A stretch of DNA of 64,000 nucleotides from Macrocystis pyrifera. Its lineage: Eukaryota > Sar > Phaeophyceae > Laminariales > Laminariaceae. The stretch is from positions 124,001 to 188,000 of the forward strand of contig JASSKH010000044.1 of the NCBI GenBank assembly GCA_031763025.1, written 5' to 3'. A program made the position numbers and the translations under genes. Below, piece after piece: positions 6,505-39,112 of this stretch; the first letter of the stretch is position 1; every line of letters starts with the position of its first letter. The notes below the pieces were generated by a model, which saw only the letters and a program-made list of their open reading frames with translations, searched no databases and was not told the DNA's origin.

Positions 6505-6817
6505 GTGAGCGGAGTGTGTGATTTTCGTCATTCTATGTAATGACTAACTATGTTTGGTTGTAGGTAACGAAGCGTTTACTTTTCTAGTTCATCTGCCTTT
6601 GGTACCAACGTGTTGTTGTTGTGTTGCCACATGTAGTAGCAAGATACCAAGGTGCTTCAGTTGAGCCCTAGTTGAACAATTTCAAGCTGTTGCTGTAGGA
6701 TATCAGAACGTTGCATGTGGCACGAGGTAGCATATTCCCACGCACGTACGGAGAGATCCTCGCACTATGCATTATCATGTACATCTCTTCCGTGGTGGTT
6801 CGTGTTGGTGTGCACAG

Positions 6818-6889
6818 GCTGGTGGGGGAAAATGACATCGGAACAATCTATGTTGACGTGTTCCAGAGCTTGGGGCTTCTCAGAACCCT
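6818..6889 (+). CDS. LRR exon 3 (72 nt)
   Basis: The exon is bounded by TGCACAG and GTGAGTGA. It encodes LVGENDIGTIYVDVFQSLGL then LRTL. The asparagine-hydrophobic core (ENDIGTI) and the VFQSLGLL end fit the array consensus, although this is the most diverged of the intact copies. Exon size (72 nt) and intron phases are unchanged, which supports real splicing rather than chance. Confidence 0.75.
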
Positions 6890-9800
6890 GTGAGTGAGCG
6901 ACCAACTGGGAGTACAGCGATTCAATACATTAATCTCGAACCGCCCGATGAAACAACCATGCCTGACACGCTTCCTAGGCTGACAATTTGTTTCACGTCT
7001 TCGTGAAGGAAGCCTACGCGAGGATTCAAGCCTCTGGAACACAGATCCAACGCGTGCTACGTTAGACGTTCGTAGAATGTTTTGTATGAAATATGCTTGG
7101 AACGACGGGACTCCCTAATGCCAGTTTCCTTGTTTTTACGTTATTATTCGTACACTGAGATTTTATTCATCGTATTCGCGCTTACGGTTTCCGAGTGACT
7201 CCGTGATAACTTGTTTATAGTATAGAGACCCTCAAGCGAAAACCGTCAAATGAAAATCCAGTGCGTTTTGTTTCGTCGCATATGTCTCCCACTGTCAATG
7301 GTTTTGCGGAATTTTGGGACGCCCCCCTCGTTAATACCAACAAACATTGACGGTATATTTTAGTATTTAATGATAGGGATCATTTGTGGGATCGCGAGCG
7401 TTCACAAAAATCACCTTTCACCCGTTTCGAAGCAGGGTTGCATCCGGGGGAGGACACATTTTCAAGGTATTCGGCTTATGGGGACATCATGCTTGAACGA
7501 CGGAAACATCGACTATTGCACCGAACGTTCTGCAGAAGTTGTCACAGATATATCTCATGTTTGTTTGCTGAACCACCAGTCTGAACGCATTAGTTTGTCC
7601 TTTTGCAGACTGTGTATTTATCGCTCCAGTAATGAAAACAGAGGTGACGTCGAGAACGAAAGTCAGCGTTGTCGTATGATGACTGTTGAGTTTGTTGCCG
7701 GTCTCATTATATAGCCCAAGTTCGAGGATTATATTTTTTTCGGTGTTTGTTCTGTCACGTGCTACAGTAGAAGCTGCACCTGTTAATTTTTACGCTCTTC
7801 ACGTGACTGTGGTGGAGGAAATCGTTTCGCTCTCCCTCAAAAACGTTTTTTTTTGTAGCACAGAACAAACAGACGTTTTTTCAGGCTGCCAACTGTAGAT
7901 GTTCCTCGAGACATTTTGCGAAATATTATGAGATTGGCGATATTTAGCGATAATTATTACTGTAGGTTCTCGGTACCCTTTAGAAACCCTGCTAGCCAGA
8001 CACACAATCCGGCAGAAAAATGTAGTCGTTATCGTGGCAGGCATACGTTTTCCAAATATCTTCCGAGAACGGCTACGAAACAGCAATTTACCCGAAGAGA
8101 GCCGTACAACTGACGGGGAAGCATCTGTTTCTGGGGTTTCCACAGTAAAGGAGTTTCACACTCAGAATTTCTGAAAAACAACTTAAGGGGAATTAAAAGT
8201 GAGCAAAGCCATGGTAGGGGTGGTACCTTAGTAAATGAGCTTTCTACACGAGGAGCTCAACATCTCACCCGGAACATTCGAAACACAACATGTTCACCCA
8301 ACTTGACGTACCCTGTCTACGCGCTCATCTTGAACTTAAATACAATGTATTAGTAGCAGTAAAGTTGTCATACTATTAATAGCTGGTGTCGAGAAGCTCA
8401 GCAATTGTGAAACCATTGAATGAAAACCGTGCAACCCCTACGCGGTGAGATGGGTAAAGTGCAACACGATGAACTATCGTGTGGACGAAACCTTCAATAA
8501 AAATCAAGTGAACACCCAACTCATTGTATTGCAGCAAAACTCGGCACAGGACTCTCGTGCTAATAGTAGACGCGAACTACGGAAAAAGAGGTGGCACCTG
8601 GTATTTCTGAGGCTCTTGGATTAACTTCAGTTTAGAAGCTCTATATTTTTCTCAAGAAATGTTTTTTTTCCCAGAAAAAACGGACGATTCAAGCTCGACC
8701 TGTTGAAGGTGTTGTCGAAACATATAACAAACGAAACTGAGACTACCCACGTTGGGTTGACAGCATTTCCTTAGGTGCCCTTTAAAGACCGCACCGATCA
8801 GAAGCAAAATATTACACAATAATGTTGCATCCATCTCCTGGCGGGCCCTTAATAGTGTCAAACGTTCATGAGTGGAGAAGGTTGGTCGACCAGGAATTGG
8901 TTTGCCCAAAACTTGACACCGGTGTGTCTCGAAATGTATACTTGTATCAGTGGTCAAACGTCAAATGGCTACCATTCTGTGGCTAAACCTGAGGGTTTTT
9001 TTCATCCTAATGTTGGCATATACGTTCCTCGAACTGTTCGGTGCAGAGTGATATGGAACGCATGCTAAGATGGGGTGCATCATCTTTGCCCTGTAAGTTT
9101 CCTCACTTGAAGCGCTCAAAACATTTTGAAGCGGAAGGATTTTATGAGAACAACCATCCCCGTGACCTGTAGAGAGTAGGTATGCACAAAACTACCCTTT
9201 TCTAACAAAAACAAAAGACGGTCCGACGAATTTTGCTCAAGGAGCCCTGTTAATCAGGAAATTTCCCAGGTAAAACGTGCCATCGGTGTAGTTGTAGAAG
9301 GCATCAAAGCAAGGAACATATGTCTGACCTCCCCTCCCCCCCGTCCACTCTATTGTAACGTGCGTCTTATCACGCTATACACGCCGCGTACAGTCAGAGT
9401 AGAGGTATCCAAAATGTAAACCACCGTCGCAAACCAACAAATATTTTCAACCAACAGAGCCATCCTAGGTATGCATTCAAGATCAGAATGAAGACTCAGA
9501 GCTTCAACTCCTCAGCGAGTTCGCAGTCGTTGAGTCGTTTATATTCAAGTTCGAACTTCAGGTCCAATACCTATTCTTCTATTGCTTCCGCTAGTACCAC
9601 AGCAGGAGAAAAATATACAACTACTCGCACTACGGTAGTGACACACTTGAGGAAAGCCATGACAGGGGTAGTGCCTTCTTTTCGTGAAATCCACACATGG
9701 GTACAGCTCAATATCAGACCCGGACGATCAGTTCGAACAAGCTTGTACCCACAACCCGTTCAACAATTCTATGCGCTACAGTCGTGCTTGCAAAACCCAA

Positions 9801-10382
9801 ACGTACTCGTGGACGTCTCATGGTACTCGATACATTAATCGTTGCTCCCTTGAAGTGCGCGATCGGTCAGAAACGTCTAAGCCGATAAACTGCATACTGG
9901 GTGACCTCTTCAATGTTATTAGCTGCGGATTGAACGGGTAGTATCCAAAGTAAAGAGCAGGCACTACCATCACTATCACCGTGGTTTGGGACAGGCTGCT
10001 GTCCGCGGCGAAAAACGTCGAGAACATCGTTCATTCACACCATTATTGGAGAGCCTTCATAGGCACGGCAACAAAGCACTGTTGCCATAAGTAGTGGTGG
10101 GTGTCAAATATGTAGCATGGGAGGGATCGTGTTTGTTGCGTTTGTCTTCGTCTTCGCAGAAGGGACGACACATCACCAATCATGGCCATGACAGCGTATA
10201 ACAATGCGGCGTACGTCTGTTTTTCGATTGAGGCGAGATCCGGTATAGGCGACGTCACGGTCTGTAGTTTACTTGGTTTTACCATATTTTCTTCTTACGT
10301 CCTAACCTGGAGCCGGTCTGCCTCCCCCAACCAGTTCTAAATTTCATGTTGCTCCATAAATTGCACGTATGCAATTGTTCAG
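6890..10382 (+). other. intron between LRR exons 3 and 4
   Basis: About 3.5 kb begin with GTGAGT and end in a GTTCAG acceptor. A region near 9044-9090 ends in a GTAAGT donor and vaguely resembles a shrunken LRR exon, but it lacks the core motif and was not accepted. Otherwise nothing is recognised. Confidence 0.45.
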
Positions 10383-10454
10383 GGACCTGAGCGACAACGC
10401 GCTGGTGACTCTAGAAGCCGGCGTCTTCGACAACTTGGGCTCCGTTCGTCTATT
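10383..10454 (+). CDS. LRR exon 4 (72 nt)
   Basis: The exon lies between GTTCAG and GTGAGTTG. It encodes DLSDNALVTLEAGVFDNLGS then VRLL, very close to the array consensus (L.DNAL.TLEAGVFDNLGS). Length and phases match the other LRR exons. A decayed LRR exon follows only about 300 nt downstream, suggesting local exon duplication followed by loss. Confidence 0.8.
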
Positions 10455-12734: not shown

Positions 12735-12750
12735 CTATACGGGGGGTATA

Positions 12751-12980
12751 TGGCCTCTGCCAGATGATATCAGCAAGAGGGCTTCCAGCGAGGGACTCCA
12801 CCAGTCTCGCTGGCCTCGCACTCAGTAAGTCTTGTTCTTAGAGCTTGTATTATCACGGAGTGATCCTCATCGGACCACGAGCCAGGTGGCTAGGGGACAT
12901 CACACAGGATCCCCGGCCACTGCTCCACTCACACATGCGATTACACTGAAACCTCCACGGCTTGGTATCTTTTGGCTACA
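12751..12980 (-). repeat. LTR (3' LTR of the minus-strand element)
   Basis: A 230-bp direct repeat beginning TGGCCTCTGCCAG and ending TTTTGGCTACA. I found no difference from the copy at 18074-18303. The sequence next to its inner side, read on the minus strand, is a G-rich tract that fits a polypurine primer. Confidence 0.92.
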
Positions 12981-13059
12981 GCACCCCCAAAGCGAGTTCA
13001 CTCGACACGAACGAGCTTGACAAAACCAAAAAACCAAGACGAAATCGCATGCGGCAAAT

Positions 13060-13300
13060 CACAAATCAATGCTGAACTCTGAAGCAATTTTAATCTTGAG
13101 CGCACGGGTCATCCGTAATTTGCGCAATTCCTTCACGACGAATTCAGGCGCAGCAGAATAAATCGACCGCAAAGACTCCCACGTGCGCTCCTCTGCTTCG
13201 AAACCATCCCAATCGACCAAGACAATCACCTCGTTGGCATCATCTTCGGCCACATGCACCAAAGCATTCATGCGGCATTCACCCTGCGCAAAGGAATGTT
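13060..13300 (-). mobile_element. chromodomain part of the LTR element (approximate)
   Basis: The minus strand encodes VLVDWDGFEAEERTWESL, which matches the chromodomain pattern (V.W.G......TWE). In chromoviruses this domain lies at the C-terminus of integrase and is thought to guide insertion to chromatin marks. Boundaries are approximate. Confidence 0.75.
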
Positions 13301-13449
13301 GGAAAACATCCTTCAGATCAGCGGTGACGTTCAACGTCGCATCCGCATAAAATCGTAAACGTTGTTGTCGCGAGACACGGCAACAGCTGCGCGAATATCG
13401 GCGCAAAATCTCTCCTGCTCTGCAACGACTTCACGGACGTTCGCACGCA

Positions 13450-16250
13450 ACAAGTCAGCATTCATCACGTCAACATTCCACCTGCCATCAGACTCAGAAA
13501 CGAGCGCCGAGAAATCGGTACGCGGAGCACGCCCAAACATCACGCTGTACGGAGTGCTTCGGTAACGTTCACGAAACGAAGTGTTCAAGGCCCACTGAGC
13601 GGCCGGCAAAACATCAACCCACTCCGAAACCTGACGACGCTGTTCTGACAGAATGGAACGCAGAGCACGTACCACCTCTTTTACCATGCGTTCACACGTA
13701 CCGTTCGACCACGGCGTGTAAGCGACAGCAAAACGATGTTCGATGTGCAACGCGTCGCTCAACAAAGCAAGCACCCTGTTCTTGAAATGCGTGGCGGTAT
13801 CACTCACCCACACACGCGGCACCCCCAAAGTCTTACACCAGGCTAGCAAATGCTTCGCTGTGACCTCGGCTGTACAAGCCTCGGCCGGTTCCAACGCCAC
13901 GTAGTTGGACAAATCATCCATGATGACCAAAACATATCGGAAACCATCCTCATCAGGCAGGCCATCGCTACCTTCGGGCCCGCTGTGGCCAACATACAAA
14001 AAATCAAAGTGCACCACTTCTCCCGGAGCGGTACCATGCACCGTGTCTCCGTAGGGACGAGGAATGAGTGCACCTGCACGCGTGTCTACACAGTGCAAAC
14101 ACTGGCGAACGAATTCGCGAACCTGAGAATCCATGTGAGGCCAAACACAATATTCCTTCAGGCGAAACAAAGTCGGCGCCACACCACGGTGACCAGCCGA
14201 GCGCATGTGCGCGCACACTATCAAACGAGTTTGAAGAGCAAGATCATCCGGCGGAATCCACAAGACGTCACGCACCCCAACACGCACACGAAACAAACCA
14301 TCATCGGCCAAGGTAGCTTGACCGAAGGTTGTCGAAAATTCATGAACACCAACGCCGATACGAGCGACAGACCTTTGTTGCGAGGCACGAATCACATCCA
14401 ATGCGGGAAGCGAATCGTCAGCATTACATGGGCTGTGCACGGCAACCGAACGAACAGGCACCGTAGGAACTTTGACCCAACGAGACAACAGATCCCCCCA
14501 ACAGTTTCGATCGCCAGGGATGTGTTCGATTGCATAGCGGTATTGTCCTAAAACACCCTTCCAATTCTCTAGGCGTTGTGCCATGGTCTTTGTGACCGTC
14601 GTGACACACTTCTCCGGATTGAAAATGTACTGCAAGTTTCGATGATCAGTAAAGATATGAACACCACCCCAAAGCAGGTATTCGAGCCTCCGGAACGTAT
14701 TAACGATCGCAAAACCTTCTTTGTCGACAGTCGCCCAGCGCAACTGCGAACCTGTGAACGAACCACTCAGAAATCCGAGAGGCTCGTGAGACATGCTTTC
14801 CAACGCCAATCCACTGCGAAATTCGTGTTCAGGCACTTGGGTGAGAAAACTACCCCAATGGAAATCAGAAGCGTCAGGAAACATCAAAACAACGCACCCG
14901 GACGAGGATGATGAAGCGGCACTGCTTGCGCCACCAAACCCCGTGCGGCATTCCACGCCCGCACCCGATCCTCCGTCCACGCGGTATCCTTGATGACACG
15001 ATTGCGCGCCACTCGCTTAGTCCGACGTGTAGCCCCAACAAGGAGCTCCTCCAAAAAATCACGTAACGGTGCTACCGTTTCCGCTAAACGTGGTAACGAT
15101 GTACGCAACCAGTTGACAGCCTGCAAGAATTGCATTAGTTCTCCAGCGTTTTCGGGACGACGCATTTCACTTAAACCTTGCACTCGAGCGGGGTCATGGG
15201 ACACGACACCATTGGAATACACCTTACCACACCAGACCAGTTCACGAGAGAAGAAGGTACACTTGTGGGCGGCGACAAACAGTCCAACATTCTCCAGGCG
15301 TTCAAGAATGTCATCAAGCAGCTGCAGAAGAGCTTCTTCGGTGTCTGCGAAAAAGAAAACGTCATCGACCCAAACTTTGCAATCCAAACCACGCAACACT
15401 TCAGTCATGACACCTTGGAAATAAGAAGTCGCATTCAAAACACCTTGGGGAACACGGGTAGGCGTGAACAAACCGTCGCTTGTCGCCATGGTGAAGACGT
15501 CTTGCGCCTCCGGAGCCAAAGGCATCTGCCAGTACCCTTGAAGTAGGTCCAGCTTGCCGAAGAAACGCGCCCCCAGCAGATCTCCCATGTCTTCATGGTT
15601 GGGCATGACGCCCGGGGACTTCTCCACCTGTGCGTTCACCGCCGAGTAGTCGCTCACCAAACGGAAAGAGTCCTTCTTGGGCACCGCCATCGCCGGACTC
15701 GCCCACACCGCCTGGATGTTGTGGTAGACAAAGCCAAAAAACACCAAAGCAGCAATGCACTTCGAGAGCCAGTCCCTTTTCGTCGGTTCGTACCGACGTG
15801 GCGTTGCCTTGACAGGCTTCGCCTGTTGCTTCAGCTGCACTCGCATCGGCTCCACTTGCGCTGGCGGATCACCACACAGCGCACGGCGAAAAGCACCCAC
15901 GCGACGAGCCAAAATTTCGCGCAAACGGGTTGCTCCGCCGACGCTTAATCCACTCTGCTCTGCCTGCTGCACGCTGTCCTCCAACGCCCGTTCTCGGGCC
16001 GTCCGCTCCTCCTCCGGATCCATGAACATGTCTGGCCCCCGGTCGACCAAATGTTCCACCGCCTTGTCCTCCGGAGCATCCACCGTAGCCTCGGTCTGAA
16101 AAGCACGCACGGAAACCGTCACTCTGCGCGCCGCAAGGTAACTCGGAGTCTCCACACCGGTCGATACCGGCACTGCGCGAGGGCGAAGCTTCTCCAGAGC
16201 TTCACGGTAGACGTCGATGCCAAGAGCTTTCATGGTAGCCATGCCAAACA
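13450..16250 (-). mobile_element. pol part of the LTR element: RT, RNase H, integrase (approximate)
   Basis: Reverse transcriptase lies at roughly 15.0-15.9 kb, with the motifs LLQGYWQMPLAPEAQDVFTM, RVPQGVLNATSYFQ and a VWVDDV version of the YxDD box. RNase H is at about 14.5-14.9 kb (PDASDFHWG, FTDHRNL). The integrase zinc part is near 14.1-14.2 kb (H...H...C..C ending CLHCVDT) and the catalytic core at about 13.5-14.0 kb (HFDFLYV, SDTATHFKN). This order is diagnostic of Ty3/gypsy. Boundaries are approximate. Confidence 0.88.
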
Positions 16251-17864
16251 GAACGACGTTATCTGTACCAGGCATGACCGCGAAAGTGATGGGCTCCAAT
16301 TTCACACCGCTCCCCACGGCGTCCGTACACTCACGGCAATCGGCACCGTTTTGTGCGTGACCATCACTGAAACACCCGTAGCGGTTTTCGCCTGCTGCGG
16401 GCCATTTTCGAACGGAATTTGCAGATCGGCGCCGCCGAAATGCGAAGACAGCTGCTGAAGTAAGCCGACACCGATGGACGTGAGCGCCGACCCCGAATCA
16501 AGGATCACACGCGCCATCAGCGAACCAACCGACCCTGGCAAAGAGAGATCAGCGCGTAAACACTCAGCGCTGCGATCGACAGGCACTTCACCTGCCGTTG
16601 AACTCTGGTCGGTACCAAGAGTCACCTGACGCCATGGCTGCCCTCCTACAGCCGGCGCCGAAGAAATAGAATCGGCGGTCCACCCCGACCAAGACGTCGA
16701 ATATACAGACGGTTCCGGCGCTACCGCCCCTGCAGCAGCACCAGACACTGACTCCGCCCGCTCGGTGGATGGCGAAGTTCTCGCTCCAGCAGCACCCACC
16801 GATGTTCCAGCTCCTCCAACGTATACAGCTCGGCCGGCAACAGACGAACCAGATCCCGACCCAGCGGCTCCTGCCGCTGGCGCACCAGAAGTTGAAGAAG
16901 CAACAGCAGAAGTTCCACCGCCCGCTGTCAATTGATTGCCACCACGGCCACCGCGCCCGCGTCCATGGTTGAATCTGCCCCGGCCGCCATTGCGGCCCCC
17001 GCGATACCCTGACGACCCGCGCCCACCACTGCTGGGAGCTGTGCCGCCACCGCGAGCTTTTGGGCAATCAGAAACATAATGGTTGGGATCACCACACTCG
17101 AAACAGACGCGAACAAACGACTTTTTCGCGGACTGCTGCTGTTTCGGTTTCTGCTGCTGTTGGCGTCGCGGTTCAGCTGCCCCTGCAGCATCTTTCCGAC
17201 CATACGCCTCGATGAATTTCCACTGTTCTGCAGCAGAAAAAATTTGGTCCATGACCAATGCCGGGTCCTTCTTCCACCCTGCAGCGTACGTTAGCTGACC
17301 TTTTACGTACTTTTTGAACTCGGACGGCCATAAGCCATCCACCAACGCCATGCTCACAAATTCCGCCGGTCCGGGCAACCACGAACGGTCCTGCGCGCGG
17401 TACATGGCATGCACCGCGTGATTCTCCGCAAAATACTTTTCCATAGCGGAGTTTACCATCATCGCGCGGTCTTTGACGGATGTTTCACCGCCCTGCTTTT
17501 CATCGCGCCTCATTGAGAGAACGCGACGCAAGTCCGCTGCCGCCCGCGAGGTGTCAAATCTGTTGCTGGTGGTTGTGTAACCAGCGTGCTGCCTAACAGC
17601 GTCCAACAACTCCGAGGCGGTCATCGTAGTCTGATGCTTGTAAAATCCCTCAAAACACCGATGAATGTAATTGGGGATAAGCTGGCCCATGCTCACTTTG
17701 GAGTGCTGAACCACCCCCTGAGCGTTGGCGAGCTGCAGCCGTTCCTCATAATCGAGGTACGCTGCGTAAAAAACACGAGAGGCCTGCTCGGTCCACACCT
17801 CTCCGTATTTCGGTGGAGTCAGAGACTCCCCTACCACCAGCGGCGTGCTTGCCGTGTGCGCCAT
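16250..17864 (-). mobile_element. gag-protease part of the LTR element (approximate)
   Basis: The Gag-like region starts MAHTASTPLVVGE and has a single zinc knuckle near 17.1 kb (CFECGDPNHYVSDC). A long Gly/Ser/Ala-rich stretch follows. Near 16.5 kb an aspartic-protease active site appears as VILDSGSALTSIG. These are the nucleocapsid and protease parts of the element. Confidence 0.88.
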
Positions 17865-18073
17865 AATCCACAGCAGTCCACCTGGACTCTACTGTAATAA
17901 CGGAGAAACTGCCGCCTGACCTGTGCGTCCTCCAGCTCCCGGAGCGTCCTCCCCTGCTGTGCGCTTCAAGCCGTTTCGATCCGTCCAACGGGCCAACTGC
18001 CTTCCCAGCTGTGACCCAATACTCCGCAGCCGAAAACTCCTCCAACAGAAGTTCCGAGAATATCTAGATATTT

Positions 18074-18303
18074 TGGCCTCTGCCAGATGATATCAGCAAG
18101 AGGGCTTCCAGCGAGGGACTCCACCAGTCTCGCTGGCCTCGCACTCAGTAAGTCTTGTTCTTAGAGCTTGTATTATCACGGAGTGATCCTCATCGGACCA
18201 CGAGCCAGGTGGCTAGGGGACATCACACAGGATCCCCGGCCACTGCTCCACTCACACATGCGATTACACTGAAACCTCCACGGCTTGGTATCTTTTGGCT
18301 ACA
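18074..18303 (-). repeat. LTR (5' LTR of the minus-strand element)
   Basis: A 230-bp direct repeat identical to 12751-12980 by eye. On its inner side, read on the minus strand, follows AAATATCTAGATATTCTCGG. I could not identify the tRNA primer from this. Confidence 0.92.
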
Positions 18304-22241: not shown

Positions 22242-23142
22242 GAGTGTTTGAGATAGAGGTAAAACAAAACAAAATTACTTCCGCTACAAAAAGGGAATTT
22301 CATTCCCTTCCTGATTTCGGTGTGTTTGCGAGTGAGGTAAACCAAATCCTGCAGGCGACGGCTCCAAAAATAAGAAGGAAAGTGGGAAAGTGAGGGAACG
22401 CGGCAAACAAAAAAAAGAACGAACGCTGTGAACAGAAAACACAGCGTGCGAGTGGCAGCCCAGCAACGTTTCGGCGGCACAGTTGACCGCGAAGCTACCA
22501 CAGCCATCGCACGACTACAAGCAGGAGCTAGCTGGTGCTAGATGCAGCCAGGGGCACAGCGTGAGCAACAAAAAAATACAGCGTCAGCACCAGCAGCAGC
22601 ACCAACCAGCTTCCATTCTTGGATTGCTGCTGCTGCTGCAGCTCTGGTATGGTGAAATCGAAATGATACACTGGCTGTCATGCTGTCGCGCTCTCTACGA
22701 GCACGAGTACGAGTGTGAATACGAGTCCTTTTTTGGGACGGCGTCCTCCACGTCGTCACCAAGCGGGCGAAAGCGTGCACCGTAGCAGCGGTGGCGACCC
22801 GCTGGCACGATCCAATCGCCGCTCGTGCGCGCTACACTCAAGCTGCACCTCTCGAGCCTCTGTGCTCCCAGCGGTTGCCGTCATGCGTACGGCAAGCAGC
22901 ATGTTGGCATGGAATATGCTCTGTGTTTGAATTCTTCGTCATTTGATTTGCGTACTGCGTCGGGACAATGCTCGGTGCGTGTAGGCCCATAAAACAGAGA
23001 GCCAAAAGTGTCCGTAACTTTCGATGGAATCCTTGCTGCGCTAGAGTACGTTTCGGCCGTTTTTTTCAGAAATTTACCTCAAAACTTTACCTCGGGAGAA
23101 TATTTAGAGAAGCAAAAGTAAAAAAACATATCGCAAACACTC
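22242..23142. mobile_element. non-autonomous TIR element, 0.9 kb, copy 1
   Basis: The ends are GAGTGTTTGAGATA on the left and CAAACACTC on the right, an inverted pair extending over about 15 bases. It is flanked by TA on the left and CA on the right. The body matches 38223-39112 over most of its length (for example GTTTGCGAGTGAGGTAAACC and the GAGCACGAGTACGAGT block). TA next to the ends suggests a Tc1/mariner-like TA duplication. There is no transposase, so it must be mobilised in trans. It lies in the long intron of the LRR gene. Confidence 0.65.
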
Positions 23143-26072: not shown

Positions 26073-26144
26073 GGATCTTCAGTTCAATCAGTTGACGACC
26101 GTGGACTCCGGGATCTTCGACTCTCTGTCGTCTCTTGTCGTATT
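26073..26144 (+). CDS. LRR exon 5 (72 nt)
   Basis: The exon lies between ACCTCAG and GTGAGTGC. It encodes DLQFNQLTTVDSGIFDSLSS then LVVL, a clear LRR of the same type as the upstream exons. The 72-nt length and the one-base/two-base phase are conserved although the nearest intact upstream LRR exon is more than 15 kb away beyond the inserted elements. This supports one common array. Confidence 0.8.
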
Positions 26145-29100
26145 GTGAGTGCGGCATGTGATTTCCATTTCTTTTAGTAATGACCGCTATAATACAACTC
26201 GGAAATTATCGGTAGTTCAGGTGTTGAGGTATTTGTCGCCATGGACGCAATTTGGTTTCTGTAGCGAGGCTGTTGGGACGAAGCCCGTCGCACGAGATGG
26301 CGCACCCCTCACTGCAAGTGACAGCTAACGTTAAACGCGAATTGCTGAAAAATAACGTGAACAATCGCATGCTTGCATACATTTCAAATGGTGCAGCGGT
26401 GACGAACGAAGAACAGGGCGGGTCGATCCGAGCAAAGTTGATGTTTCCGCATTAAAGTATAAAACTAGATGACAAATGTACTATAGTACAAACGCAGACC
26501 ATAACACCGTGTGCGCACATGAAGTCGCATGAGTCTACGTGAATTCGTCCCCCCGTTTCGTTCCTCCGCATTATTTTGTTTCCACCAATACACATCTCCG
26601 AAATCTACTTCTGTCAACCTCATAGTCCATAACTCTGTCAGAAGCGTGCTTTTTGCCGCGTATAATTTGGAATTCCTCTAAGTACCTAAGAGCACTACTA
26701 CCGCTACTGCTACCGCTACTTGAACGTTTGATAAGATCGGTGTCGCTATATAAGAATCCTTCGCTTACCGTCTACGACCTTTCCCACGATGCTTGTCTGT
26801 TTCCATGTTCTTATAGGCGGCCAACTTCAAAATCCACGTACCGTGCACCTGCTCGATGAGGCAACGAGAGCTGCTGTAGTATGAAAAAATGAACGGAATG
26901 GTGTGCTCGTATCACTTGTCAAATCGCGCTGTTCGTACACACAATATCTGTTGCTCACTGTTGCTGCCAGTCGTCGGCGTGATCCACGACGATAGCCTGG
27001 CCCAATAAGGCGCGTACGAACCCAACGCCTTATAGCAGTATCACAAAGTGCAGCTGCCGGTGTTAACCAACCGTCAGTCGATTGGCATGCGCCATCATGC
27101 ACGCACGCATGCGTTACAGCGAAGCAAAATATCTAGATGTTTATCCTCGTCTGTTGGCCTGCCACTCCTATTCGTTCGTTGAATTATTGTCAACACGATG
27201 CATCAGAACGAAATTTCTCAAACAATACCCTAGAGAAGGTATTAACAGCTGTCGATGGCATCGAGCTCAATCCCTCTGTCGATCGACAAGGTCATGGAAG
27301 GGATATTCTAAATATGACGCGAGTGACGCTAAATTGTATCTGTACGTAATAGTACTATAACGACAATGTGATCGAGGACAGAAAAGCCTTGGTCGTCTTC
27401 ACTGAAGTGTGTTGCAACGTATACGGTTCCTGTCCTCCTATGAAGCGTATGTGCGTTGCAAATGCGCCCACGTTGTTGGCACCTTGGGGACGGCAGGTAG
27501 GAGTGATTTTCGAGACTGCGAATACGTGTCTGAATATCAAACAAACCTTCCTTTCCGAAAGTACAATGTGCACCTCGATGAACGGGTTTTTATCAAGCGC
27601 GATTTCCAGTCAAAATATATCGCCGCGGTTTCCACACTTTTCGTTGAGAAACCAAAAACCACGGAATACCCACGCAAATCGAGACAACGAAACGCCACGT
27701 GCACCGTGAGAATTGGCTCAGTAAGGTTCAGGCCGGATACGCGAAATTTGGCGTGCTGCAACTATCTTCCACGCCGTACCTTTCCGAGCGTTCACATGTG
27801 GAAAGTAAACAGTTGGGAAGAATCGAAAACGTTACTTCCGCTGGGAGATCACACAAAAACAATACCAGGTACAGCCTTTCTAGCTGTACGTACTAACATG
27901 AAAATATCAGCAGCGGTTCTAACCCGTTGAGGCACTGTAACGTATCAACGAAACAACCTCACAAAACCACACACCCGCCAATCACCAGGCAACAGATGAC
28001 CCGACACGACTAGTCTGCCCTGGGCGCTTCGCTATATTCATTGATCACTCCGTTGATTTCGATTTGAATTGTCGTTTAGTTGAGGGGTTTTCTTGTTCGG
28101 GGTGCTGTACTGTACCAGCACGTGATGAAGACGTGCGTTACGTATATTGTTTAGTCGGCGTTGTGGAAACAGATGGGCGAAATTTGTGACAAACTTACGA
28201 GACGGGGCTATTGGGAGACGGGCCACGAAACTGTGTAGTGACATTCCGAACACTTCATTTCCCGGACATCAATATTGTTCCACGGGATCGACAGAGAAAT
28301 GAACTACAGGTCTACAGCAGCTTTGGTCTCGTGCGTTCGTTGCAACACAACATGTAGTAAAATATATGCAACAACCTGAGCAGTAATGGCAGGGCATGAG
28401 CTGATAACGCCAGCAGCCGGACAAGACAAGAATGTACCTTCCCCGGATGTACATCTGCTTGGAACGGGGGCAAGTTAATTGTCGTTGAGGCAGCCGATTC
28501 GTGTTTACGGGGGTATATCTTATTTGACAACCGTGTCCTACAAATAACAGCAAGCTTGTACAGATAACTTCGGTTTCACCGGTTGAACACTTTCAAGACT
28601 ATAGTCCCGTTATGTGGACAAATAACTCAAAATTCTAAGTATTTCGCTGCCGAAACGGGAATGCAGTATTGAACGGGTTGATTTAAACTACTGAACAAAG
28701 TTGCCAAGCAAATGTCAAGAAGCACTACCAAAGCAGTGTTTGAGTTCGCAGAGGGATACGTACTCGCGTAGACAACCCTCAAGACCAGGAATCGTTGTCT
28801 GTCAGGGGCAACTATGTTATTGTGGTACCGGGCCGACGGGGAGGAGGGTTTAGTGTTGAGTACCGAATGATCCGGGTCGAGGGTGATATATTACATATAT
28901 ATAGTAGTTCGCTTACAAGGTTTCAAGAGAGGCTACACCCTAGAACGCGTCAACGTCGACGGTTCCCATGTCGGTTTCGTCCATCCAGATATTCCCACAC
29001 CCAAACACGTCCCGGAGCGACGTACAGTCTGGGCTTGTTTACGTAGGACACGTAGGGCGCGCGATAAGTGAGATTCTATCTATTTTTGGTGTCAACAGTT

Positions 29101-31028
29101 GCCGTAAACTGTTGCTTGGAAGTGCAGGCTTCTCTCAAGTGCTCAACCGCGTGTGTCACGAGCGAACATGATATGTGGATGTAGTAATGTACAGTAATTC
29201 AAGGTGGGCATGTATTGTTCGCTGCTCACGCACTCGACTACGACGTATCCCGGAAAAATCGCGACGCTGGACTAGCTAGACGCCAAGAACTCGTGAAATA
29301 CATCAAACGTTCGTGTCGCGTATCCCTGAGCACCATACAGCTGCAGTAGTAATACCATTCTTCCGTTGTTGCTGTAGCCACTGCCTTTCCGTACCAGTCC
29401 GGTAGAGCCTTCATTTAGATTGTTCCGAAATAGTTGACACTCTACCAATCTGTCCGGCAACGAAAGGACCGATTACTGTAATTTTGAAACTGCAAACGGT
29501 CCGAATATTTATGAGCAGGGCGGTATAAGCTTCCAGCGTATCTGGTACTTGGTATCTGGTACTTGATATCTGGTACTTGGTCTCTGGTACCCAATATCTG
29601 ACACTACACACCCTAAGATAGAGGTGGACCATTTTTTTCTTCGGTTCCGGACTTGCGGAGATATGTACTACCACTCTGTCCGGGAATATATGGACGGTCC
29701 AACTTGAATATGAGAACAAAAGGCTCCTTAAATTTCCCGACAAAGTGGTAGGAACATGTGCTTACCGAGTCAATCCTAACTAAAAACTGATGTTCTCGGC
29801 GAATCGAAGCGCGAAGGCTAACAATCAATCACATGGCGCATGTAGGTGTACAAATACTACAAGAATTTCACAAAAGAAAGTCGTTCGGACGACTGAGGGT
29901 TGAGGAGCCCCATCATTCAGGACACGATATTACTGCTGTCACAACTACTGCTCGTATTGCCACCTTGCTGGTTCTGCATGCTACTTTTGGTCATACACAG
30001 TATACGGTAGTGTTTCTTCGACTGCAAACGCACCGCCCAGCCATCGCCGCCGACACCCCGAAACCGTCTGATCTAAGCTTGAGCAGGCTGATTATAGCAA
30101 CTAGTAGTCCTACTGCTGTGCCACAACTGCTATCACGTCTACTGTTGTTACTACTGCAGCTGTTACTATCCTAGAGCTACATATTTACTACCTTTACTAC
30201 CAATACGAGCTGCTTGAAAAACAACAGCACCACTCCGTACGCAGTCTACTTAGGACGAGCTTCGATTTGTTGGACGTACTGCTAATCCTTTAACGCCTTC
30301 CGAAGATATCTTCCGAAGTCCTTGAACAAAAGCGGAACCGGCGCCGGGCATACGCCCGTCGTGGCTACGGCTCGCTTGAAAATGATACTGCAGTAGTCCT
30401 GTCAACTTGAAGGTGTTGGATAAAATTGTTTAATTCCGACGGATGCATGCTGCCATCGAATTCTTTGCGTAAGAACATCCCTGCCCCGTGAGCAAGAAAT
30501 AAAAGACCAATCGTATGTAAGACACGAATAATTATTTTTTTACACTATCACACAGTTTTTGCTCTTCTTACCAGTGACAGCTACACGGTTGCGTTGGCTA
30601 CACCTGCGTATTTCGGTGCTGCTGAGTACGTAGAAATATTTACCGTAGAGCTTGCTCAGTGTATCGCCCGTGAATCAGTGCAGATAACAACGAACTCATC
30701 GGTCGTATAAGCATTGCTGTTTGCCAGCAATCCCGCACGAATGCATGTCGCTGTTCCTCTATATATCACAAACGTGCCAAATTGATTTATGTTTGCGCAA
30801 GCACGGGCGAGACCATGCCTACTCCACTGTACAACGTTTCGTAATATGAAGCCTTCGGTGGATTATAGGTCTCCACCTTCACAGCTATGTTCATATAATA
30901 CTCCGTACCACTTTGTCCCGAAACATCAGTAGCGTTTGAATTGAATGATAATTTTTATTTCTGATATATTGAGGTACATTAGGTAGTTAGCTAAATGTTC
31001 CCTACGCTACCTGCATGCGCTTGTTCAG
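26145..31028 (+). other. long intron, nothing recognised except a short tandem repeat
   Basis: About 4.9 kb. The plus-strand open frame at 27409-27930 is long (173 codons) but has no recognised motif or exon signals tied to the gene; it is probably chance. A 15-bp tandem repeat lies at 29537-29602. Confidence 0.4.
29537..29602. repeat. 15-bp tandem repeat (TATCTGGTACTTGG type)
   Basis: Four to five slightly different copies of a 14-15 bp unit containing TCTGGTACT(T/C) stand head to tail in intron sequence. Confidence 0.75.
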
Positions 31029-31100
31029 GCACATAAACATGAGTGGTTTTACAACGATAGAAGACAGCTTCTTTAACAATTTGAGCTATGTCCGACGACC
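31029..31100 (+). pseudogene. degenerate LRR exon lacking a donor
   Basis: A TTGTTCAG acceptor is followed by a 72-nt window encoding HINMSGFTTIEDSFFNNLSY and then VRRP, in the phase of the other LRR exons. The N..GFTTIE.SFFNNLS pattern is a recognisable LRR. At the expected donor position the sequence is CCTGACAG rather than GTGAGT, so normal splicing out of the exon would fail. It may be dead or use another donor downstream (GTGATT near 31128). Confidence 0.5.
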
Positions 31101-31395: not shown

Positions 31396-31467
31396 GTTAC
31401 TGGACGACAATATGATCGCAAGGATCGAGGCGGGCGCGTTCAATGGTTTATCGTCAATCCGTGTCGT
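31396..31467 (+). CDS. LRR exon 6 (72 nt)
   Basis: The exon is bounded by GGGAACAG and GTGAGTTA. It encodes LLDDNMIARIEAGAFNGLSS then IRVV, a good LRR (L.DN.I..IEAGAFNGLSS). Length is 72 nt with the shared phase. The next downstream introns are much shorter (a few hundred bases) than those upstream. Confidence 0.8.
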
Positions 31468-32224: not shown

Positions 32225-32305
32225 GTCTCTGAACAATAACGCTCTGACGACGCTTCCCGCCGACCTTTTCAAGGACGTCGGAAGTGGCTCGTCACTGCAG
32301 GAACT
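32225..32305 (+). CDS. LRR exon 7 (81 nt, with a three-codon insertion)
   Basis: The exon lies between TCATCAG and GTGAGTAC. It encodes SLNNNALTTLPADLFKDVGS followed by GSSLQEL. This is an LRR with NNNALTTLP and ADLFKDV, lengthened by nine bases (a Gly-Ser-Gly type insertion) before the last SSL. It keeps the one-base/two-base phase, so it remains symmetric. The insertion near the C-terminal end of the LRR may mark the transition to the cap that follows. Confidence 0.8.
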
Positions 32306-32529: not shown

Positions 32530-32571
32530 GAATCTGGACGGCAATTCAGGGCTACAATGTGTTCCCACGAT
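32530..32571 (+). CDS. LRR-cap exon (42 nt)
   Basis: The exon lies between CGTTCAG and GTGAGCTA. It encodes NLDGNSGLQCVPT, the pattern of the last half-repeat of an LRR block (L..N.GL.CVP), which closes the solenoid with a cysteine. Its phase (one leading, two trailing bases) fits the LRR exon before it and the linker exon after it. Confidence 0.7.
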
Positions 32572-33064: not shown

Positions 33065-33111
33065 CAACTCACCCTTCTCTGGATCGCTGCCTTCTACCGC
33101 GGACATGCGCG
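33065..33111 (+). CDS. linker exon changing intron phase (47 nt)
   Basis: The exon lies between ATATGCAG and GTAAGCGT. It encodes NSPFSGSLPSTADMR, a Ser/Pro-rich spacer. With one leading and one trailing base it is the only exon found that converts the phase of the LRR block to the phase of the cysteine exons. Both joins work: CVPT-I-NSPF upstream and ADMR-E-CVPV downstream. Recognised from phase and splice signals rather than homology. Confidence 0.55.
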
Positions 33112-33510
33112 GTAAGCGTCTACGGAGTCTGTGCCGGCCTCTGTCGAGAGTAGTGTGTGATGAGGATAGTTTCCGACATGTGTATGATTGTTTCAGCATG
33201 TTGGGTTCCAACAGAAGGTCAACGGCCGGTCATTTTCAGAGTGAAAATGTGATGTGTTAGTGGAATAAATTTTGCTAGTCCGACTCCATTGTCGAGTCTA
33301 TCACATAGGGAACTCAACAACCCAGTGAATAGTCACAGAAACTCCTATGACGTGAAGTCGCGCGACATAGTGACTTTAACGCACGGCTTGATGCAAAAGT
33401 GTCACGGAAATTCACGAACGATGTTCGCATGATGCACGGCCAGCCCTTTTAACCGATGTTTCACCGATACACTCTGGCCCCTGTCAAACGTCGGTATTGC
33501 CACCCAACAG

Positions 33511-33594
33511 AATGTGTCCCAGTCGCCGCAGTGGCGTGCGTTGCAGACTCGGAAGTGTGCGTTCCAGGGGCCGTGGGCTACACCTGCATTCCTG
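33511..33594 (+). CDS. Cys-rich exon 1 (84 nt)
   Basis: The exon lies between CCCAACAG and GTAAGACT. It encodes CVPVAAVACVADSEVCVPGA then VGYTCIP, with four cysteines spaced like a small disulfide-bonded module. It resembles half of an EGF-like or similar Cys-rich repeat but is too short to assign. Exon length is a multiple of three and the phase is the same at both ends, so it is a shuffling-competent unit like the LRR exons but in a different phase class. Confidence 0.6.
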
Positions 33595-34761
33595 GTAAGA
33601 CTGGTTGGAGGGTGTTGCAGCGACAAGTCAGCGGAACGCCTCCCTACTGTCGCGGGCATGCAGCTGTGGGTGAAGAGCTAGTCAAGAGATATTTCAGCAA
33701 ACGTACAGCACGGGCTTGTTCATATTAGCCGGGGTTCGCAGAATTTTGGATTATCCTAACGACTGCATATTTCCTGAGAATCTAATTGGCTAACTCACGT
33801 TTCCCCGACACGCCAAGCCTCCACATCGCAATAGCAATGATACTACGCTCGCCTGCAAATTTGGTGTAATCCGAATCACAATGAACAATACATAATATGT
33901 AGGCCCATACGAAATAAACCTCGACGTACACTATGGAGGTCACACCTAAACGCTTGATGCAGGGGTGATGACACGGTCTCTCTGCTGATACGTAACGTTG
34001 GAGGTAGAACATGTCATTGACCACAGAACGCTGGGTTTGCAGGAATATTCGGAGTAGGACCCATGTTTAAATACGTTCCGTACCAATGCAACCCGATCCC
34101 TATTCGAAGGCGCTCACCAAGCCCCCCGGCGACGTTACTCCAGCAATGCTGGCATCGTTGAGGCCTCCGCCCAATCCACACCTGTAATCATAAGATTGCC
34201 AATTGTGCAAGCAGTTCAACATTGAGTGTATTCAACACTCCGACCCTACCCATACGTCGCGGACAGCGACAATATCGAACTCATTGGCGACCTTCAAGGC
34301 CGCACGAGAGTGGGTCCTGCGTCCAGCGCACATTGATCTCCGTTCAGTACTGTGGACGGGCCACATGCTTTTTCGGTGGAAATTCAAAACCAACCCCGAC
34401 ATAACCTACTGTATTTTTGCGTGGCAGTTTTCATCCAGACGTTGGAGATGTTGCAGTATCAAATCTACATGTGAACATCAAGGGTGTTCTATAAAGGTTA
34501 TGATACTTGTAAAATCATTCCCTCTCCATTGCCCCCCCTCCCCATGTGCTGTGTTTACCTGTGTCTTGAGCTTCGCTTTGCTGCATACTTAGACTATTCA
34601 GTAGGTGGTTCGCCGTAGGGGTCAACGCAAGCATTGTCACGGGGCGATATGATTGCTACTTACTAATGTCATCACTCCATGCACGTGGTTCTTTCGGCGG
34701 TGGTCCCGGCTGTGCACTTGGTGGGTGTTGTTGTCCAACGTCTGTCATAAATTCCGCACAG
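33595..34761 (+). other. intron between the two Cys-rich exons
   Basis: 1.17 kb beginning with GTAAGA and ending TTCCGCACAG. No further exon with matching phase and splice sites was recognised. Confidence 0.45.
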
Positions 34762-34863
34762 CTTGCGTCGACAATGACGACTGTGAATCGTCCTCTGGCG
34801 AAGTATGCCGCGCATTGACGAGAATTTGCGAAAATCCTGACGAGGTCGACGCGGGTGCTTGTG
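34762..34863 (+). CDS. Cys-rich exon 2 (102 nt)
   Basis: The exon lies between TTCCGCACAG and GTGAGAAG. It encodes CVDNDDCESSSGEVCRALTR then ICENPDEVDAGAC, with five cysteines and acidic residues. The C.D.DDC....GEVC pattern is common in secreted multi-domain proteins as a small disulfide module. The intron phase at both ends matches its neighbours, so the reading runs from CIP-G through A-CVDND to GAC-G-DPHM without a break. Confidence 0.7.
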
Positions 34864-35489
34864 GTGAGAAGATCTACGTTACAGTAGTGCGATTGTGTCT
34901 CATCCCACCGTTCGGGTATGTGGGGTGTTTGCTTAATTTATTCTAGCCGGTTCAGCTTCTCAAGTGAGCGTAGTACAGGATGACACACATTTTTCTAGTG
35001 AATGTAACTAGGATCAACTCATAAAAACGTTTACTGGTTGGTGGCGAACATATGTATTTGACGTTAAGGTGCGGGTGAAATTTTGAGCTTCTCGTATGAG
35101 TAGCTAAGAACATGATGCACCACCGCTATCTGCCGTGGGATCGGTCGTGTTGTCGTCTATATATCTGCGCCATAGGTACTGTTGCCATGGCCGAAGACGT
35201 AATGGGCCTTCCATGAGTATTGCAGGATACGCTGGCAGTTTCAGCAACTGGCGGAACACATACGACGATCAAGGGTTGGTTTGTACAGAGTCCGTGAGGA
35301 TAGCAGCATGTGCGCCGCGCCGTTCAAACAAATGTCAGCGAGCGGGTATGTACAATCGCATGCTCGTAGTGTAAAAACATCGGCAGATCGGCAGCGTTTG
35401 GGTGCGCATAAAATAATTTCATGGGCTTTCCCCGCGTCCCATGGACAAAATTCCGTCGCGCTCTCCTGCCCCCCCTCCTTTCCGTTCAG
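34864..35489 (+). other. intron before the GDPH exon
   Basis: 626 nt from GTGAGA to a pyrimidine-rich acceptor (CCCCCTCCTTTCCGTTCAG). Nothing else is recognised. Confidence 0.5.
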
Positions 35490-36339
35490 GTGATCCGCAC
35501 ATGACGGGGTTCCGCGGCCAGACGTTTGATCTTGCGGGCGAAAACAATGGGTGGTACGCTCTCATCTCGGACCTTCCGTACATGCACATTAACATGTGCA
35601 TTACGTCACCTGTCCCTTCCGTTCCCGAAATTACCTATATTACTGGACTTTCTATTGTCACCAATGACGCCGACGGTCTCGAGCACATCATTATCATCTC
35701 TGTTGTCAACCCGCACAGCTTGGAGAGCTCCTGCCCCGTTGGCACGTACTCCTGTCTCGCCGATGGGTCCCTTCACGTGGCCGTTGACGGGGATGAAGTT
35801 CTGCTAGCGCCCGGCGAAGTTACGGTGGCCCGAGATGTTTCTATCGCCGCGGTCAACCTTCCCGGGGCATGCCGTAGCTTTGGATTTGAGAAATACTGGG
35901 AGCGGAAGAAGCTCGAGCGTGTTGCTCAGTCCGACCGCAGGCTCGGTTTGAGGAACACTATGCAGGACATGTCTGAGTGGGTTCTCGCCGATCCCACCGC
36001 CACCAACAAGGCGGAATGTGCCGAGTACGTGGCTCGCTCTACGGCTCGTGACGGCGTTGGTCTTTTCGCGAAGCAGTCTGAGCATGTCTCCTTCCAAATC
36101 ATGACCCCGACAGCAAAGATTGAGCCACGGTAGGCTGCATCAGCTGCCGATGCGCGATCCCACCAACCAGTTCGACCTTCCAGACCACCTGACATGGCAA
36201 ATGAACATGGCCATTGATCATCACGATATAAGCCTGGACGCCACGGGCATCCTTGGGGAGACGTTCGTGCCTACTCTCAGCGCGAACGGGACCCCAATCA
36301 TGCAGGGTATGGACGCCATTCGCGGGAAGCAGGAAGACT
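35490..36339 (+). CDS. GDPH-type (vWD / root-cap-like) domain exon with a frame break
   Basis: After a strong TTCCGTTCAG acceptor the exon reads GDPHMTGFRGQTFDLAGENN then GWYALISDLPYMHINM. This is the start signature of vWD-like GDPH domains, which often have GDPH-x5-G-x2-F/Y-D-F. The C-terminal part (36135-36339) encodes ATGILGETFVPTLSANGTPI and GMDAIRGKQED, like the ILG.T/V.G.LG.TY end of plant root-cap/LEA-type proteins. The two parts are in different frames: the first stops at 36131-36133 and the second opens just upstream, so one extra base near 36131 (or a missing pair) separates them. A GTGAGTAC donor at 36340 shows that the exon once continued to another exon. It may be a pseudogene, a truncated allele or a sequence error. 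Confidence 0.7.
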
Positions 36340-38222
36340 GTGAGTACGCAAATGAACGATAAATCGATAAACACTTGACACCAGCGCGACAGAGGTTTCT
36401 TCGTGGCCTTTACTGGGATTTCTTTTGCCTTTGAACGGAGTGCGCTATACTTAAGTAAATTATACAAACGGCTGCATGTCTTTCGTATAACGATGCTATG
36501 CACGAAACTGCTACAGGCCAGTGACCGCAGATAGTAGGGGACACCCTCATAGTAGGGGAACGCCAAATCCTCGCATGACTAGCCGTAAACAGTGTTGCTG
36601 TGATGTCAACTGTCGTCATCAAGTTCGCATGATAGGTTACGGTGGGCATGGTGGACCTCCACAGAAAACTCGAAGGAGTACACATAACTCAATCTACGTC
36701 CGGTAGCTCTACAATATGCATGATACATCCCATAAGAGACATCATAACATGTTGTTGGAATGTATTCGACAGTCGTGGACGGCACCAAATAATGTCAACA
36801 ACAATGTTGTTTTGTTTAAACTCGCCAATTCGGTGCCTCTCCATGCCTACTACCAGATCGCGTCAAGGGTCCCGTTGGAACCATCTTTCGCCAGGGCCAG
36901 CGTCTCGGCTAGACTAACACTCGTGTTCGACTACATCGGCACTGATTCACCTACGACGGGATGGTGCATCCTCTGAACGATCGAGGACCGATTTCGGGCA
37001 TCAGCAACGGGCTAAGTTTTTCGTTCCTCCCCGCGGACCCATGCTCTAGCGTCGGGACTATAGCAAATGTACCGGACATAAGGTGTCATCAAGTGCGGAT
37101 GCGTTTGGGCTACGTAGATACCTACAGTTATCGATGATTCGTGACCTGTTCGTAGTGAATGCTAGTGCTTCAACGCAATCCCGAAACAGAAGCATGTGCA
37201 CACTCTGTAGTTATACTCACTCCGAGGGATCGCGTGCATGCCGGTTTTTTGCCTTTACCAATTCCCTGATACGGCGTAACGCGCCCCACATATTTGATCG
37301 GACGTGAGCACAACAAATTCGGAAGATTATGCGAAGACGTCAGTCCACAGCTGGAACTGAACTTGTCACATATCTCTGAATGGATATCCTCGTACGTTTC
37401 GGGAGGGGGGATGCTCTTGGCGCAAGCAACGCATTAGCGATATATCTGCATGGGTTGTTCAATACCCCTGTATAACATGTGTACTGGGATCCCATTTTCT
37501 TTTCTGCAACACAATTATTTGTGTTTGGAAGACGGTCGGAAGTTGTTCAGTGGATGACCAAGCGCACACGTTTCCCTTGACGTCAGGTTTTCGTTGATGT
37601 AAACGCCTCCGCTAGCGAGGAGCCCAGTGGAGTTGTGGTTCACCCCTTTGTGTCTGCAGTGCGGGGCGAGGGTTGCGTATACCTCTATTGATGTGGCTTT
37701 TAGCATTCAAGACGTGATGTTGTTCGTGTCTTCCACGAAATACTACCGGTGCGCCAATGTTGTCGGGTGGTGTGTGCCGGGTCTACTTTGTGAAGACGTG
37801 GGTATATATTGATTGTGTTCGTCGAGATTGTACCAGCATACGTTCGTATATTTGATTTTTCAATTTTCCCGTTGATTCTGTCTCCACAAGGTTAAGAGAT
37901 GACTTTACGAAGGAAGTAGAGATTATATATCAGGATTCCCGTTTTAGCGTGGAGATCCTACCGTCCATTGGATCATGATAGAATTTGAGATGTGCCATTA
38001 TTCTGTGACAATTCACCGCCCGTACTCGCATGTTGCACCTAGCAGGGGAGCTCTTTGTGATACTGTGATACTTGTCTACGAAGAACTGGGGATTAATACT
38101 GTGTTACGAGGGATTATTGTGTTCGGTGACTTCACGCCGGATAAATCATCCGCTGGGTGAGACTTTACCTTCGAGGCAATACAAAACTACGATAGGACCC
38201 GAGTTTTTTATATTTGAAAATA
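36340..38222. other. no gene recognised
   Basis: The segment starts at the donor after the GDPH exon. The expected next exon (the end of a root-cap-like domain) was searched for and not found. Several open frames of 60-90 codons without motifs are present on both strands. Confidence 0.4.
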
Positions 38223-39112
38223 GAGTGTGTGCTATAGAGGTAAAAAAAGAAAACTTTAATTTTGCTAAAAAAAAGTGAATTTCCTCCCCGTGTTTGCGAG
38301 TGAGGTAAACCAAATCCTGCAGGCGACCCCTCCGAAAATAAGCAGGGAAGTGGGGAGGTGGGGCAACGCGAGAAAAAAAACAAAAGAAGAACGGACAAAA
38401 AAACAGCGGCAGCCCAGCAACGTTTCGGCAGCAGAGTTGACCGCGAAGCCACCATGGCCATCCCACGACTACAAGCAGCAGCACAGCAAGCGGCAGCTAG
38501 TTGGCGATAGCCGCAGCCAGGGGCAGCTTGACAAACGAAAATAAACAGCGTCAGCACCACTAGTACCAGCACCAACCAGCTTCCGTTTTTGGATTGCTGC
38601 TGCTGCTGCTGCTGCTGGTGACATCGAAATGATACACTAGCTTTTATGCTGTCGCGCTCCGTATGAGCACGAGTACGAGTGAGTACGTGTGAGTACGAGT
38701 CCTTGTTTGGGACGAAGCATCCTCTACGTGGTGACCAAGCGGGCAAAAGCGTGTACCGTAGTAGCGGCCGCGAGCCGTTGGCACAATCTAACGCCGCAAG
38801 TGCGCGATATACCCAAGCTACATCTCTCGAGCCTCTGTGCTCCTAGCGGTTGTCATGATGCGTACGGCAAGCAGCATGGTGGCATGGAAGATGCTCGGTG
38901 TTATGATCCTTCGAGATTTGAGTTGCGTTCTGCATGGGGATAATGGTCGGTGCGTGTAGGCCAATGAAACAGAGAGCCAAAAAGTACCGTAACTTTCGCT
39001 GAAATCCTTACTTCGCTAAAGTACTTTTTGGCCGTTTTTTCAGAAATTCACCTCGAAACTTTACCCGGGAGAATTTTTAGAGAAGTAGAAGTAAAAAAAA
39101 ACTCAAACACTC
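38223..39112. mobile_element. non-autonomous TIR element, 0.9 kb, copy 2
   Basis: The left end is GAGTGTGTGCTATAGAGG and the right end is CAAACACTC, flanked by TA on both sides, consistent with a TA target duplication. The body is clearly related to 22242-23142 (shared blocks include CAAATCCTGCAGGCGAC and GCAGCCCAGCAACGTTTCGG), with many small differences and indels. The two copies are therefore separate, older insertions. No transposase is encoded. Confidence 0.65.

Follow-up and report, generated by a model that had tools for sequence, protein, structure and literature searches.

We analysed a window of 64 000 nucleotides of the brown alga Macrocystis pyrifera (contig JASSKH010000044.1, here C134:124001-188000) and searched the whole genome (537 Mb in 223 contigs) for related loci. 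The window carries, on its forward strand, exons for leucine-rich repeats (LRRs), Cys-rich modules and a long domain opening with the motif GDPH. This locus is a degenerate copy in a multi-copy algal gene family. The chain recurs in the same order and on the same strand at many loci, which points to a gene family and not to a misreading of the sequence. The family probably comprises secreted matrix proteins, as predicted below, in which the LRR head varies and the GDPH tail stays constant. An earlier sequence-only reading of the window had proposed the joining of LRRs, Cys modules and GDPH; this stands as a recurring genomic architecture, but the window copy, whose broken frame that reading missed, is not an intact example of it.

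Exon chain in the window and across the genome

When spliced in silico, the window exons from 31396–31467 to 35490 onward have AG/GT borders, fitting phases and a single open reading into GDPHMTGFRG. The chain consists of an LRR exon of 72 nt (31396–31467) and a last LRR exon of 81 nt (32225–32305), both of phase 2-2 and both recovered by an LRR exon scan, followed by a cap exon of 42 nt bearing LQCVPT (32530–32571). Next come a linker of 47 nt leading from phase 2 to phase 1 (33065–33111) and two Cys exons of phase 1-1 with 84 nt (33511–33594) and 102 nt (34762–34863), all three delimited by borders, phase and comparison with paralogues, and then the GDPH exon. The 47-nt phase-switching linker and the pair of Cys-rich exons had been predicted from the sequence alone and are confirmed, the linker also in paralogues L026 and L036. 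The exons listed in the earlier reading start at 32225; the gene reaches further upstream, as the LRR exon at 31396 is part of the chain.

Seven exons in matching phase had been counted between 32225 and 35490. This is correct for the chain into GDPHMTGFRG and incorrect for 35226–35345, if that possible extra Cys exon was among them. This candidate is not conserved as an open exon and is probably due to chance: over 20 fetched stretches it has just two partial matches, one in L025 (residues 20–39, borders and frame lost) and one in L032 (containing a stop). Comparable candidates turn up in 10 of the 74 stretches of equal length taken from other parts of the window, and the same chance scan of paralogue introns gave one in L025, two in a long L028 intron and none in seven others.

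The GDPH exon has at least 150 six-frame matches in its own genome (E up to 0.001; the scores cover the best 150 of 221 candidates, and a small number of these matches are fragments of one exon). For comparison, 20 stretches were fetched, which together contain 19 GDPH loci in addition to the window. Many loci share one order on one strand: LRR (72 nt), last LRR (81), Cys cap (42), linker (47), two Cys exons and the long GDPH exon. In L026 the lengths are 72, 81, 42, 47, 84, 102 and 855 nt, with no stop and with fitting phases; L036 (72, 81, 42, 47, 84, 96 and 855 nt) differs in the second Cys exon alone. An AG acceptor precedes Cys exon 1 in 13 of 13 loci, Cys exon 2 in 11 of 12 (L027 has CG) and the GDPH exon in 12 of 12; the donors of the Cys and GDPH exons were seen for three chains. 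The linker is present in six of 13 loci (window, L025, L026, L027, L036 and L047), and L035 has a 53-nt candidate.

A splice-anchored scan for LRR exons in 22 sequences gave 34 matches on the gene strand and none on the reverse strand, so that chance can be rejected as their source. Strict LRR exons with an LQC(V/I)P cap lie upstream on the same strand in 11 of the 19 GDPH loci. Genome-wide, a query made of the last LRR exon and the cap has 39 matches. For 21 of them the next downstream GDPH place (139 of the 150 places were entered) is on the same strand and within 15 kb, and these 21 reach 18 distinct GDPH exons on seven contigs. About 0.08 such pairings would be expected by chance, given 139 places in 537 Mb and treating tandem copies, which are not independent, as if they were. 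The partners include GDPH exons on C198, C189 and C134 that are merely 37–38% identical to that of the window. All 14 matches of Cys exon 2, compared by eye, lie upstream of a same-strand GDPH place. At the DNA level, the similarity of the window to five distant paralogues (L028, L031, L033, L035 and L036) is concentrated in the predicted exons and extends to some degree into the flanks.

Degeneration of the window copy

The reading had been described as unbroken to 36339. It is so as far as GDPHMTGFRG, but the frame is lost near 36117. In paralogues, ...TPTAKI is followed in frame by RLSHGRLHQLP and the LGET segment. The GDPH exon of the window (35490–36133) stops at a TAG at 36131–36133, before the LG.T segment, and the remainder (36117–36338, RLSHGRLHQLP ... 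LGET, donor at 36340) lies in a different frame. A conserved terminal exon (RVKGPVGTIFRQGQRLG-stop, 36857–36912) follows 3' of the GDPH exon, and the protein ends shortly after GDPH. This exon was considered as the site of a second disablement, which was rejected: eight matches including the window have a stop at that place, and the C199 copy reads through. Two conserved cysteines are also replaced. The Cys at the end of the linker, present in the five other linker-bearing loci, is Arg in the window, and the Cys-Cys of Cys exon 2, present in all 11 other loci, is Cys-Arg.

Further LRR exons of 72 nt lie upstream and may belong to the window gene. Those at 3203–3274 (phase 2-2, cag/gtgagt borders), 6433–6504 and 6818–6889 could be part either of this gene or of another copy upstream of it; those at 10383–10454 and 26073–26144 fall within a block syntenic with the C199 paralogue. 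Relative to that paralogue the segment 26322–29026 is inverted. It aligns in two pieces, 26322–26724 and 27526–29026 (69.5% and 68.3% identity), and within it an LRR exon interrupted by a stop lies on the minus strand at 28916–28987. A decayed LRR exon without donor lies at 31024–31095, and its C199 counterpart is decayed too.

Between the LRR exons at 10383 and 26073 sits a repeat element (12749–18303), probably a long terminal repeat retroelement, which is a recent insertion. Its parts 12749–12980 and 13590–18303 are 100% and 99.7% identical to a copy on C199 in the opposite orientation; the C199 copy adjoins paralogue L025, and the match extends to the end of the fetched stretch. The short reading FASEVNQIL is found at approximately 22260–22290 and 38270–38310 of the window, as if part of a repeat.

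Damage is found in other members as well: the GDPH exon contains a stop in L027, and its frame is broken in L037. Decay and turnover thus look normal within the family, and undamaged paralogues exist, for example at C199:7259801-7269800.

Character and evolution of head and tail

The LRR head is recognized by Pfam LRR_8 (PF13855, cut-off 27 bits): the spliced head of the window scores 36.7 bits (E = 3.5e-9) and L026 scores 39 bits (E = 6.7e-10), in agreement with the LRR assignment made from the sequence alone. It matches the extracellular LRR proteins LRRC15, LRRTM and VLR. We infer that the protein is secreted because the LRRs are of extracellular type and accompany Cys-rich modules and a GDPH context. 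The spliced L026 model has no Pfam match to a ROC-COR GTPase or a kinase, and the chain ends in GDPH and the last exon.

The GDPH exon had been assigned to a vWD-type domain, with a root-cap-like C-terminal pattern. The Pfam profiles do not bear this out: among the 17 algal GDPH exons of our profile A1, none matches VWD (PF00094) or Root_cap (PF06830) at E up to 10, and the window exon has no VWD match at E up to 5. Over the whole genome Root_cap finds one place, below the cut-off and not a GDPH place; VWD finds none, a result that is uninformative alone as the controls were silent too. Pfam and NCBIfam scans of the exon gave no meaningful match (two chance-level rows), and the best hit of a profile search of PDB (E = 0.91) is at the GDPH motif of FCGBP. 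Plant root-cap proteins also contain GDPH, LG(Q/E)T and the C-terminal end after it, and might match the exon better over its full length.

A peptide-pattern search for relatives in viral and prokaryote contigs was unproductive. The DNA pattern GDPHxxxFxGxx(F/Y)xF yielded at least 120 prokaryote stretches, of which 80 loci (L048–L127) were listed; all seven bacterial sequences tested are Pfam VWD. Among the matches listed, proteins with this pattern occur in cyanobacteria, Crocinitomicaceae, other Flavobacteriales, Azospirillum and Myxococcales. The algal profile matches an alignment of 71 of 81 pattern matches (at least 170 residues) with 92.8% probability over residues 1–120, against 0.7% for the reversed control. 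Since the bacterial set had been chosen by the GDPH motif, the motif was removed as a control. The probability then falls to 9.3% over 30 columns, the best of 40 column shuffles giving 3.8%, and in HMMER the true algal sequences and their reversed counterparts have overlapping scores. The vWD likeness of the exon is mostly the GDPH motif.

Structure prediction had been proposed as a check. The window exon alone gives a mean pLDDT (predicted local distance difference test score) of 34.8. Together with 57 bacterial VWD sequences, an alignment that biases the model, the mean is 56.6, with 74 of 213 residues at 70–90. A Foldseek search with this biased model places D domains of VWF and MUC2 in its first four rows, but the best E is 0.075 and no row reaches E ≤ 0.001. 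The exon resembles VWD in beginning with GDPH and in the strand-rich first ~120 residues of the biased model; it differs in that its LG.T lies about 257 residues in, whereas the GLLGN element of bacterial VWD lies about 140 in. Given the lack of a Pfam match, a signal that is mostly motif and a biased model, we label the exon vWD-like and not a member of VWD. Of the proposed vWD-type domain there remains a distant likeness of the first ~120 residues, on weak to moderate evidence.

The tail exon is unusually similar between the window and its C199 paralogue L025. The two GDPH exons are 96.3% identical, with flanks at 70.8% (upstream) and 75.6% (downstream). Their synonymous divergence (dS) is 0.107 and their nonsynonymous divergence (dN) 0.017, while dS over four head exons is 0.55. 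Compared with L026 and L027, the window GDPH exon has a dS of 0.38 and 0.43, near the divergence of the flanks (65–66% identity). The tail dS far below the head dS, together with the low flank identity, implies that gene conversion may have homogenized the tail exon of these two copies. A GDPH exon more alike than its flanks, found in 12 of 12 pairs, is expected from selection alone, so the argument for conversion rests on dS. Synonymous constraint on the tail is an alternative explanation for a low dS, but it would affect all pairs alike. A similar gap is seen between L029 and L030 (dS 0.217; 94.1% against flanks of 64.5% and 71.6%) and possibly between L031 and L035 (dS 0.027; 98.7% against 91.6% and 92.1%); no marked gap between tail and flanks was found in L033–L037 and L031–L034.

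The ratio dN/dS is 0.14–0.34 for the GDPH exon (20 pairs) and 0.25–0.54 for the heads (16 comparisons), below 1 in all pairs measured. In the six pairs with both values the head exceeds the tail. The heads thus appear to evolve more freely, with no overall positive selection in these tests.

Proposed function, alternatives and related systems

Intact members are predicted to carry a series of LRRs of 24 residues, each encoded by its own 72-nt phase-2 exon, and a Cys-bearing cap. After the cap, and in some members after the 47-nt exon that changes the phase from 2 to 1, would follow two Cys modules of disulphide type, a GDPH domain of about 285 residues and a short last exon. The LRR head would bind a partner such as a microbe, a neighbour cell or a wall signal, and the vWD-like tail would link the proteins to each other or to the extracellular matrix, by analogy with what has been proposed for diatoms. 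LRR exons would decay, move and turn over, with the tail exon held constant by selection and gene conversion. A recognition protein fixed in the matrix is the simplest mechanism.

Several observations weigh against this interpretation, in addition to the motif-borne vWD likeness of the tail described above. No strict LRR exon was found in the fetched stretches of eight of the 19 GDPH loci (L030, L032 and L038–L043), although L030 has a weaker match at the stretch edge, and the 19 loci surveyed are a minority of the at least 150 GDPH places. Among the 39 last-LRR matches, 18 lack a GDPH partner on the same strand within 15 kb (six array heads on C194, five on C216 and seven elsewhere). The scan that found the linker did not find it in the rest of the 13 loci. 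A scan restricted to phase-2 donors, in parts of L047, the window (3000–10383), L036, L044, L029 and L035, found neither a signal peptide nor a start exon. A full protein is unlikely to be produced from the window copy, and the splicing of the exons into one transcript is predicted from their sequence.

That the joining of the exons rests on sequence leaves room for another view, in which an LRR-Cys gene and a GDPH gene are two neighbours duplicated together and only apparently joined. The LRR and Cys1 heads without a nearby GDPH match on C194 and the Cys-only heads before some GDPH exons would agree with it. We consider it highly improbable, as both intact spliced chains (L026 and L036) run from head to tail without a stop and across phase-fitting splice borders throughout, the GDPH acceptor is AG in 12 of 12 loci, and heads pair with GDPH exons on seven contigs even where the latter have diverged to 37–38% identity. 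The family might otherwise serve as a cell-surface immune or recognition receptor and not as structural matrix, the GDPH tail merely oligomerizing the receptor. The 72-nt phase-2 LRR exons are of the shuffled, diversifying class known from brown algal ROCO genes (PMC11378527), and dN/dS is higher in heads than in tails in every pair compared. This nevertheless seems rather unlikely: the conserved last exon ends the protein without a hydrophobic stretch (judged by eye on the C-terminal side), the L026 model lacks a kinase or GTPase match, and dN/dS of the heads stays below 1.

It has also to be considered whether the GDPH family is the developmental family 'Imm upregulated 3' of brown algae, with LRR heads as one of its forms. 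According to PMC4421812, Saccharina japonica has an expanded set of these genes, for which a weak resemblance to moss BIP2 is stated. The family is large, as PMC6909449 counts 32 of its genes among those enriched in the basal blade and 28 in a profile of juvenile sporophytes; CBN74763 is named in connection with it (PMC3652789). The likeness is one of description and not of compared sequences, purely a lead, and the identity is distinctly unlikely. That the window locus is a dead relic, irrelevant to function, is in turn rather likely, and is compatible with the matrix-protein explanation of the family. The frame break, the two lost cysteines, the inverted and decayed LRR exons and the inserted repeat element speak for a relic; its GDPH exon was nonetheless constrained or converted until recently, as judged from its low dS and dN to the C199 copy, and a shorter protein of LRRs, Cys modules and partial GDPH could still be made.

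The combination of LRRs and GDPH had been thought undescribed, and we likewise found no account of it in the part of the literature on brown-algal LRRs, root cap, GDPH and vWD that was covered. The GDPH/vWD proteins of the diatoms Amphora and Seminavis, proposed as adhesives (PMC7335047, PMC8027222), share, by description, the GDPH motif domain, the proposed secreted adhesive role and a large family size. The accessible text of these papers does not mention an LRR head; in the alga the GDPH exon follows exon-per-repeat LRRs and lacks a Pfam VWD match. Brown algal LRR-ROCO genes likewise have one LRR per 72-nt phase-2 exon (PMC11378527), but with a ROC-COR GTPase core in place of the Cys modules and GDPH tail; the LRRs described here differ from those of LRR-ROCO by a conserved Phe and by their match to extracellular LRR proteins of animals. 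The same source reports 15 non-ROCO sequences of S. japonica with shuffling LRR exons, most with LRR motifs only. Some of these may be heads of the GDPH family, although GDPH does not occur in the main text of that source.

In the LRR-extensins (LRX) of plants, an LRR sensor is fixed in the wall through its C-terminal part. The comparison is one of working principle and implies no sequence kinship, the tail being extensin in LRX and GDPH here. LRX proteins are named in PMC8307928.

Brown algae evolved complex bodies and defence independently, and to our knowledge few of their secreted recognition proteins have been described. The family offers specific candidate proteins for sensing of the cell wall, adhesion or recognition of microbes, and places LRR exons of the ROCO class onto a GDPH tail. 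The 47-nt exon illustrates how LRR exons from a phase-2 pool can be connected to a phase-1 pool of Cys and GDPH exons, and a converted tail exon would keep the constant part alike while the heads drift. With such an architecture, gene callers might also divide a single gene into an 'LRR only' and a 'GDPH only' model.

On C194 (11965634–12028383) six LRR and Cys1 matches follow each other at steps of 11.5–14.8 kb with no GDPH match among them, and a complete LRR-GDPH gene comes next at 12.042–12.046 Mb. The unit that was read, L047 (C194:11991501-12001500), carries LRR, cap, linker and Cys1 exons that are open and have good splice borders. Neither GDPH nor Cys2 is matched within that stretch, and the head dN/dS of L047 is 0.42–0.53 against four others. 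It is conceivable, if very doubtful, that the six heads are spliced mutually exclusively onto the single Cys2-GDPH tail of the following gene. This would constitute a splicing-based diversity system in an alga, in which a single constant tail that binds the matrix is combined with many recognition heads.

The reverse arrangement is seen in L039, L041 and L042, where repeated Cys modules (for example of CNDDSHCPQDTCC and DACEC types) precede the GDPH exon and the fetched stretch holds no LRR; the GDPH tail thus carries other heads too. On C201, a cluster of GDPH exons on both strands lies between 68 and 693 kb. These exons are about 49–51% identical to that of the window and have near-equal scores, which suggests a young local expansion.

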